DNA of 64,000 nucleotides. It comes from Aromatoleum toluolicum. GTDB lineage: Bacteria > Pseudomonadota > Gammaproteobacteria > Burkholderiales > Rhodocyclaceae. This document shows, one piece after another, positions 9,494-11,478 of this stretch. The translations under genes and the position numbers were made by a program. The DNA lies in the NCBI RefSeq assembly GCF_012911005.2, contig NZ_WTVS01000022.1, positions 1 to 64,000 of the forward strand, written 5' to 3'. Each line of letters begins with the position of its first letter. The first letter of the stretch is position 1. The notes under the pieces were generated by a model that had not been told where the DNA came from, did no database searches, and saw only the letters and a list, made by a program, of their open reading frames with translations.

Positions 9494-9615
9494 GGTGTCC
9501 TCAGAAAGCCGTGAGTGGATATCGCAAACGCGGTATTCTATAACACTTGGCCGGATTTGCGCGATGCAATGTGGGCTGTCCGGCATAACCATCCGCGTTT
9601 TCCCCCTCCCTTCCG

Positions 9616-10266
9616 ATGTCCCTCTTCCGCAACGCAAAATTCGAGATTTCCATTGCAAAACCGGGTGATCTTCCGGTTCCGGACGGCCCCGAGATCGCTT
9701 TTGCCGGCCGCTCGAACGCCGGCAAGTCGAGTGCCATCAATACGATTGCCGACCATACGCGTCTCGCATATGTGTCGAAGACGCCCGGGCGCACGCAGCT
9801 GATCAATTTCTTCCGCCTTGATTGCGGGGCGGTGCTGGTCGACCTTCCCGGCTACGGCTACGCGAAGGTGCCCGAGGCGATCCGCCGACAGTGGGTGAGC
9901 CTGCTGGAGAACTACCTGCGCCAGCGCGAGAGTCTCGTCGGGCTCGTGCTGATCATGGATTCGCGCCATCCGCTGACGCCGCTGGACCGCCAGATGATTG
10001 ACTGGTTCCTGCCGAGCGGGCGACCGATCCACGTGCTGCTGACGAAGGCCGACAAGCTCACGCGCAACGAGGCGGCGGCCACGCTGGCGGCGGTGCGCCG
10101 CGAACTGGCGCCGCTGGGAGCGCAGATCACGGCGCAGCTGTTCTCGAGCCTGAAGAAGGTCGGGACGGAAGAGGTCGAGCACACCGTGGCGGGCTGGCTG
10201 AACCTGCCGACGGAAGCGCTGCCTGCGATTCCTGCGACGGCGCGCCTGGGTGGTGCCGGAAAATAA
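9616..10266 (+). CDS. engB: Ribosome biogenesis GTP-binding protein EngB (YihA/YsxC)
   Basis: EngB is an essential TRAFAC-class GTPase needed for 50S subunit assembly. The G motifs are in order: G1 GRSNAGKSS at 31-39, G2 TPGRT, G3 DLPGYGYA, G4 TKADK, and a C-terminal FSSLKK G5. The 216-residue length is typical. It is transcribed away from cytochrome c4 and ends directly against a convergent structured region with its own terminator, whose U tract overlaps the engB stop codon. That arrangement is discussed under the candidate small RNA. Confidence 0.96.
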
Positions 10267-10400
10267 AAGACCCCGGGCCAAAGGGGATAAAGCCCGGGGT
10301 CAAACGCCTTAACGGGATTAAGGCACCCGCTCAGGGAGGTGAAGCGGGGGACGGCTCGTCACCATCCGAACGTTCAGAGTAAATGCACTTTGAAGAAGTT
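10261..10400 (-). ncRNA. Candidate small regulatory RNA convergent with engB
   Basis: Read on the minus strand, this gap folds into three hairpins in a row. The first is CCCGCT/AGCGGG (10326-10348) with an 11-base loop UCACCUCCCUG. The second is GCCTTAA/TTAAGGC (10306-10324) with loop UCCCG. The third is GACCCCGGGC/GCCCGGGGTC (10269-10301), followed directly by UUUUAUUU. The last is a good intrinsic terminator only on this strand, because on the + strand no T run follows. The 3' end is therefore well placed; the 5' end is a guess. Loops are C-rich, and one resembles the anti-Shine-Dalgarno sequence. Spot 42 in E. coli and ErsA in Pseudomonas sit in the same place relative to engB/yihA. The family is not one I recognise by sequence. 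Confidence 0.55.
10269..10301 (-). terminator. Intrinsic terminator of the candidate small RNA
   Basis: A perfect 10-bp GC-rich stem (GACCCCGGGC/GCCCGGGGTC) with a 13-base loop, followed on the minus strand by UUUUAUUUU. On the + strand the bases after the stem are CAAACGCC, so it does not look like a terminator for engB. Confidence 0.8.
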
Positions 10401-10443
10401 CCCACTCGAATTCGTTACCTTATATTTCATGTCGATTAACTGA

Positions 10444-11478
<1,035 letters not shown>

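Follow-up and report, generated by a model that had tools for sequence, protein, structure and literature searches.

The window analysed here is a stretch of 64,000 nucleotides from Aromatoleum toluolicum. It carries the GTPase gene engB (ysxC; 9616..10266, plus strand; TIGR03598, 231.6 bits) and, across a gap, hemB (10462..11478, plus strand; PF00490 ALAD, 457.7 bits). In this gap, a perfect 10-bp stem is formed on the minus strand by GACCCCGGGC (10301-10292) and GCCCGGGGTC (10278-10269), and the resulting terminator hairpin (10269..10301) holds UCCCC in its loop. The stem is directly followed by TTTTATTTT at 10268-10260, the U tract UUUUAUUUU of the transcript (10260..10268, minus strand), which covers the engB stop codon TAA (10264-10266). 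No T run follows the stem on the plus strand of the window. The only minus-strand ORFs of at least 60 aa that touch the gap lie at 9538-10281 and 10420-10953, and both were judged to be antisense shadows of engB and hemB, not genes. An earlier note, made from the sequence alone, had described just this arrangement. Its stem and U tract proved exact on re-reading, and its statements that nothing follows the stem on the plus strand and that no minus-strand gene precedes it were upheld. A simple terminator scan missed the site, its loop limit being 8 nt and the terminator loop here 13 nt. A sigma-70-type site found on the plus strand in the window scan (9/12 matches, 0.4 expected) was considered as a hemB promoter and set aside, as these figures are no evidence for one.

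A cmscan of the whole window gave a sole match above any Rfam gathering score, namely RF02837, 'Burkholderia RNA 7 (anti-hemB)', at 10351-10263 on the minus strand (whole model, positions 1-81; 74.7 bits against a cut-off of 49.5, E 1.2e-15). By sequence, the element belongs to the anti-hemB family of small RNAs. The models RF01719 (ErsA), RF02232 (sX13), RF00021 (Spot 42), and RF02278 (toxic or double-hairpin RNA) had no match at E<=1 in 9900-10700, and the first two had none anywhere in this genome. The match of alpha-r7 to the window, 21 bits against a cut-off of 60, was far too low for it to be retained. The full transcript is predicted to be about 107 nt (10260..10367, minus strand), with a 5' end deduced from the promoter and a 3' end from the U tract. 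The segment 10365-10258 folds with −47.8 kcal/mol, compared with a shuffle mean of −32.2 (z −4.7), and 0 of 200 shuffles were as stable. The match and the fold support the small RNA gene convergent with engB that had been proposed earlier, and the predicted length falls inside the proposed range of about 100-170 nt. The same note called the RNA undescribed and saw no sequence match to known ones; both statements are corrected by the RF02837 match, and expression of the family has been published for Burkholderia.

Three hairpins with apical C-rich loops are present in the fold and in the consensus structure. Hairpin 1 (10326..10348, minus strand) displays the loop CACCUCCCUGA, which is complementary to purine-rich ribosome-binding sites. 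Hairpin 2 (10306..10324, minus strand) reads GCCUUAA-UCCCG-UUAAGGC, and the third is the terminator hairpin. A further hairpin, GGATGGT/GCCGTCC (10349..10367, minus strand), lies 5' of these and outside the Rfam model.

Anti-hemB is listed in B. pseudomallei (PMC3521395). The anti-hemB of B. cenocepacia, ncS04, is an RNA of 105 nt with Northern panels and a 3' end mapped by RACE; its binding to Hfq is cited there from earlier work, and under none of the seven conditions in that study's Table 2 did its expression change significantly (PMC5688073). Bc7, which we infer to be the 'RNA 7' of Rfam, was obtained by Hfq co-purification, and a review gives hemB as its predicted target (PMC6321483). The name anti-hemB is positional, and the RNA in the window diverges from hemB.

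Within the order, 245 of 399 genomes exceed the RF02837 cut-off (299 reach E<=0.001), and within the family 49 of 61 do so (58 reach E<=0.001); among 14 control genomes, 3 gave matches, all below the cut-off. For comparison, the window copy was joined with the 30 best loci of the order and 28 further ones of the family, giving 59 betaproteobacterial loci. engB is downstream and convergent in 55 of the 59; it is on the other side in L037, and none was found by tblastn in L016, L035, and L054. hemB is upstream and divergent in 57 (none in L037; L056 is cut by a contig end). Among the 120 public records listed with the exact hairpin 1 motif, at least 101 have both engB and hemB in place, 12 have one neighbour in place, and 7 have neither. 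The closest of these records is Aromatoleum toluvorans, with 86.4% identity over 8.0 kb of aligned pieces. The locus, suggested in the earlier note to be conserved, is kept across Betaproteobacteria, as well as in many Gammaproteobacteria (below).

The constancy of hemB as the divergent neighbour (57/59) raises the question of whether, in line with the family name, the RNA regulates its neighbour hemB specifically or as a cis-antisense RNA. The target prediction for Bc7 (PMC6321483) points the same way, as does the raw duplex energy, which is −27.8 kcal/mol for the hemB start region and −19.4 kcal/mol for engB, values that include neither the cost of hairpin opening nor a background set. However, the RNA and hemB point apart and do not overlap. 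In addition, among 80 gammaproteobacterial engB flanks (two of them, L128 and L145, shortened by contig ends), 28 have polA in convergent orientation to engB and hemB was found in none, yet the RNA is kept there. We regard hemB-specific regulation as quite improbable, and geometry gives no support to hemB as a cis target.

An alignment of 32 of the 59 betaproteobacterial sequences showed compensatory variation in hairpins 2 and 3, with changes on both sides in 12 of 22 pairs. Hairpin 1 is almost invariant in this alignment and is therefore uninformative on its pairing. Its CTCCCTG is kept in 59/59 loci, and CCTCCCTGAG in 57/59. CCC occurs in the terminator loop of 53/59 betaproteobacterial loci and 23/34 gammaproteobacterial matches. 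A 5' helix with 5 or more pairs, directly adjoining the first position of the model, was found in 55/59 betaproteobacterial loci (23.7% of shuffles) and in 25/34 gammaproteobacterial matches (24.2% of shuffles); this strict count replaced a looser one, which gave 59/59 but also 73% of shuffles. The stem pairs are exchanged between loci, with variants such as AGATG/CGTCT, AGACG/CGTCT, GAAGG/CCTTC, and GAGGC/GCCTC. This fourth hairpin, 5' of the Rfam model, is new here. Three loci of Burkholderia-like sequence (L013, L014, and L040) have neither the C run in the terminator loop nor the strict 5' hairpin.

The relatives share an upstream motif, GGAACTT followed by 16-17 nt and TCNNA. We take the GAACTT/TCNNA motif to be the sigma-E/AlgU consensus. 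In the window it reads GGAACTT-N17-TCTGA (10374..10402, minus strand), a motif match that is conserved in relatives. Promoter scores of 8-9 out of 9 were obtained for 55/59 betaproteobacterial loci (2.7% of dinucleotide shuffles), for 21/34 gammaproteobacterial matches (2.3% of letter shuffles), and for at least 89 among the 120 public records listed. The window site is one of 2 exact matches in the 6.16 Mb genome, against 3 for the reversed-pattern control; therefore, there is no genome-wide excess. The other exact GGAACTT-N16/17-TCTNA match (L151, G000:C112:49653-49680) is directly upstream of a PrkA gene (PF08298, 603 bits). An RpoE gene (351.5 bits) is present, preceded only by a weak version of the motif (7 of 9). 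The putative sigma-E/AlgU-type promoter motif of most copies examined, the window copy included, is new here.

Among the Burkholderia-like loci, L013 scores 6, L040 scores 7, and L014 scores 8 with AAACTT. The three named Burkholderia records (L162, L173, and L233) score 6; in them, the GAACTT promoter is absent and a TATATGAT-like sequence stands in its place. The genus that gave the family its name thus looks like an odd branch of it. Loss of the promoter in Burkholderia may explain the flat expression of ncS04. That flat expression fits its different promoter and gives no support to stress control.

Alternatively, the site might encode no functional RNA at all: the hairpin could just close a transcript that starts elsewhere, or shield engB as a terminator, and the overlap of its U tract with the engB stop codon would suit such a role. 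We give this reading next to no credence, because the minus-strand ORFs touching the gap are antisense shadows, the whole 89-nt element is conserved together with its promoter, and B. cenocepacia expresses its member of the family as a separate RNA of 105 nt (PMC5688073).

The distribution of the RNA outside the order was examined in a class sample of 185 genomes, in which engB and RF02837 were searched genome-wide; engB was listed for 149. The Burkholderiales genomes G000 (this genome) and G049 were excluded from the per-genome count. RF02837 matched in 87 genomes outside the order, of which 73 had a listed engB and 14 were set aside. Where engB was among the matches listed, the best RF02837 match of the genome lay on the 3' side of engB in convergent orientation in 46/73 genomes; the remaining 27 were on the same strand (3) or elsewhere (24). 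Matches of at least 40 bits were convergent in 23 cases, on the same strand in 2, elsewhere in 4, and unscorable in 7, and those of 25-30 bits were convergent in 7, elsewhere in 21, and unscorable in 4. If matches were placed uniformly, far fewer than one best match would be expected at engB, which takes up some 1.2 kb of the roughly 3 Mb of a genome. Tandem anti-hemB-like RNAs, 2-4 copies beside engB, were seen at G622:C33:13148-13886, G558:C1:904217-904516, and G599:C5:70383-70706.

A second covariance model, R1, draws on 21 sequences from 20 loci of Gammaproteobacteria, all of them outside the order. Of 34 input matches, 24 were kept (at least 29 bits; 6 excluded by hand) and 21 were aligned, leaving out L075, L134, and L148. 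The R1 consensus structure is poor, with only 9 pairs, so the model works mainly by sequence. As its sequences were chosen via RF02837, R1 is independent of the betaproteobacterial letters, not of the choice made by the betaproteobacterial model. R1 found the window copy with 44.9 bits (E 1.4e-8) and the other betaproteobacterial loci in 58 of 58 cases (28.3-52.8 bits, E<=1.1e-4). At E<0.01, it matched 39 of the 80 engB flanks, 19 of them outside the model, and by strand 37 of these 39 are convergent with engB (exceptions, L090 and L141). A cmscan covered 40 of the 80 flanks, mostly picked for having a terminator, and 35 of the 80 were inspected; an initial terminator count around engB served the choice of loci only, not statistics.

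A reach of the family beyond Gammaproteobacteria was considered and rejected. R1 gave nothing at E<=10 on 24 polA 3' flanks from genomes of the same phylum (L292-L315, one cut to 384 nt). RF02837 reached 25.6-31.2 bits in 15 such genomes, and it lay beside polA in 0 of the 12 with polA among the matches listed (polA was unlisted in the other 3).

The polA side was searched with R1 at 41 loci, comprising 40 polA flanks (the 24 from outside the class among them), 20 of which were also covered by cmscan, and the E. coli Spot 42 region. Both sX13 loci were found (27.1 and 24.4 bits, E<=2.3e-4). Six Pseudomonas-type loci scored 24.5, 24.5, 23.4, 22.6, 17.3, and 14.4 bits; five of the six reached E<=0.011 and the remaining one 0.052. 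One of the six, L283, was outside the cmscan, which confirmed the others as ErsA. R1 also matched a polA-downstream gammaproteobacterial flank at L288:1236-1342 (minus strand) with 25.3 bits, and two others weakly, with 13.1 and 10.7 bits. In the class sample, RF01719 had 8 matches. The one over the cut-off (G613) follows the polA domain match at a distance of 110 nt, engB lying on a different contig, and the 7 below it are all convergent with engB, which was among the matches listed. RF02232 had 10 matches. The 2 over the cut-off lie about 170 nt after the polA domain match, without engB adjacent; of the 8 below it, 3 are at engB and 4 elsewhere where engB was among the matches listed, and 1, without a listed engB, overlaps an RF02837 match. 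The scoring rule for the promoter, which concerns the motif only, gave 8-9 at 5/5 ErsA loci.

The R1 scores of ErsA and sX13 (14-27 bits) are little above those of the RF02278 copies listed (14.6-18.5 bits; next match, 12.2). This genome contains seven RF02278 copies over the cut-off, three in one tandem array and two in another (G000:C112:114707-115398 and 108795-109063; C234:138057-138121; C145:77024-77089), and some of them weakly match the anti-hemB model with 25-31 bits. As a parent of the window RNA, RF02278 is ruled out by the scores (no window match at E<=1; R1 at most 18.5 bits). Such figures bear on the alternative that the window holds a Burkholderiales-only anti-hemB copy, and that it resembles ErsA, sX13, and the RNAs beside engB in Gammaproteobacteria through convergence of hairpin RNAs with C-rich sequence and GC stems. 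RNAs with C-rich loops are common, as the RF02278 copies illustrate with both models, and many weak RF02837 matches lie away from engB. However, convergence leaves unexplained the genome-wide best match beside engB in 46/73 genomes with a listed engB, the shared spaced promoter, and the scores of 28-53 bits that a model blind to the betaproteobacterial letters gives in 59/59 loci, window included. We consider it unlikely; it survives best for ErsA and sX13, whose sequences appear to link them to anti-hemB with moderate, not overwhelming, support.

A likeness to Spot 42 and ErsA had been proposed in the earlier note. It stands for place and orientation at engB, and for Spot 42 it goes no further than position. 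A review calls ErsA a functional orthologue of Spot 42 (PMC8395346), a statement that concerns ErsA. The window RNA might still be a Spot 42 orthologue, given the same placement in E. coli K-12. RF00021, however, is absent from 9900-10700 at E<=1, and on three Spot 42 loci (L275, L286, and L290) R1 had no match at E<=10. Folding of these three loci showed no C-rich loops, and their promoter scores did not exceed 7. Orthology with Spot 42 is considered quite improbable. A polA-downstream RNA at L284:1297-1408 (minus strand) shares GTAGGGTACAGAGGT with E. coli Spot 42; it has 26.7 bits with RF02837, and RF00021 is not listed for it at E<=0.1. It is possibly a divergent Spot 42 or a weak bridge.

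Family membership, synteny, covariation, and the promoter motif can be read from the DNA itself, and on these the following joint reading is built. The gap would encode an RNA of about 107 nt that stands alone, carries C-rich loops on its hairpins, and ends at a terminator of its own. Here and in most relatives, it would be transcribed by a sigma-E/AlgU-type RNA polymerase and, by analogy with ErsA, would act as an envelope-stress RNA, the promoter in Burkholderia being different. Acting in trans, it would use its C-rich loops, above all the invariant CUCCCUG in hairpin 1, to base-pair with several mRNAs at their G-rich ribosome-binding sites. Such pairing would block translation, as shown experimentally for sX13; this repressor mechanism is proposed because of what is reported for sX13 and ErsA. 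In sX13, it is the C-rich loops that repress mRNAs bearing G-rich motifs close to the start codon, and they do so independently of Hfq (PMC3771888). ErsA represses algC at its ribosome-binding site, with Hfq (PMC6321483, PMC8395346), and is described as Hfq-dependent (PMC8575079). The Hfq independence of sX13 against the Hfq dependence of ErsA counts against this joint reading. The invariant CUCCCUG loop and the long U tract would fit an action like that of sX13 or ErsA, and Hfq may assist because the Burkholderia copy binds Hfq. Anti-hemB and the gammaproteobacterial engB-convergent RNAs would descend from one old gene of the polA-engB locus, ErsA and sX13 less surely. Taken jointly, membership in the anti-hemB family, pairing in trans between C-rich loops and ribosome-binding sites, sigma-E/AlgU control, and descent from one old gene form a reading that we hold to be probable.

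With less assurance, we lean towards a wider proposal, in which anti-hemB, ErsA, sX13, and the gammaproteobacterial engB-side RNAs are one ancient polA-engB gene, controlled by envelope stress in most lineages. Betaproteobacteria would have kept the engB side and Xanthomonadaceae the polA side, Burkholderia would have swapped the promoter, and Spot 42 of enterics and vibrios would have replaced the gene or diverged beyond recognition. The cross-family link is new here. In the open-access papers searched, sX13 was not found together with ErsA, nor anti-hemB with either, and subscription papers may state the link. The sX13 paper already noted the polA locus shared by sX13, Spot 42, and alpha-r7 (PMC3771888), so the positional part is not new. 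In 2013, its authors raised the question of small RNAs at the polA locus in other bacteria (PMC3771888), which the genome-wide test answers in the affirmative for many families of Gammaproteobacteria. The proposed link ties a family described in Burkholderia to two well-studied regulators. If the proposal is true, the target and stress results from Pseudomonas and Xanthomonas become testable predictions for many betaproteobacteria, and envelope-stress control of the ErsA type would be an old trait, not a Pseudomonas one.

Compared with known systems, the window RNA is closest to anti-hemB/ncS04, with which it shares sequence, the three hairpins of the model, the engB-hemB position, and length (predicted 107 nt versus 105 nt). 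It differs in its sigma-E/AlgU-type promoter motif, which is absent in the three named Burkholderia records, and in the terminator loop, where these records lack the C run of the window (UCCCC). RF02278 RNAs also have C-rich anti-ribosome-binding-site loops, but they have two hairpins and lie at other loci. GsrN of Caulobacter combines a C-rich loop with a stress sigma factor, and the text of its report does not mention polA (PMC5869019); we consider it an analogue of the window RNA. Spot 42 shares the place and orientation at engB, whereas no similarity of sequence or loops to the window was found. Like the window RNA, sX13 of Xanthomonas has three hairpins with C-rich loops; it lies at the polA locus and is a remote R1 match. 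In contrast to the window RNA, it follows polA with engB non-adjacent in both positive genomes, and the sigma-E-type promoter motif is absent there (0/2 loci). ErsA (Pseudomon-1) lies in the polA-engB gap (PMC8575079) and depends on sigma-22 (PMC6321483). It is convergent with engB as published, carries an AlgU-type promoter motif and C-rich loops, and is matched remotely via intermediate gammaproteobacterial sequences. Its neighbour is polA, whereas that of the window RNA is hemB; polA of this genome is on another contig (C277), and the window RNA is not between polA and engB.
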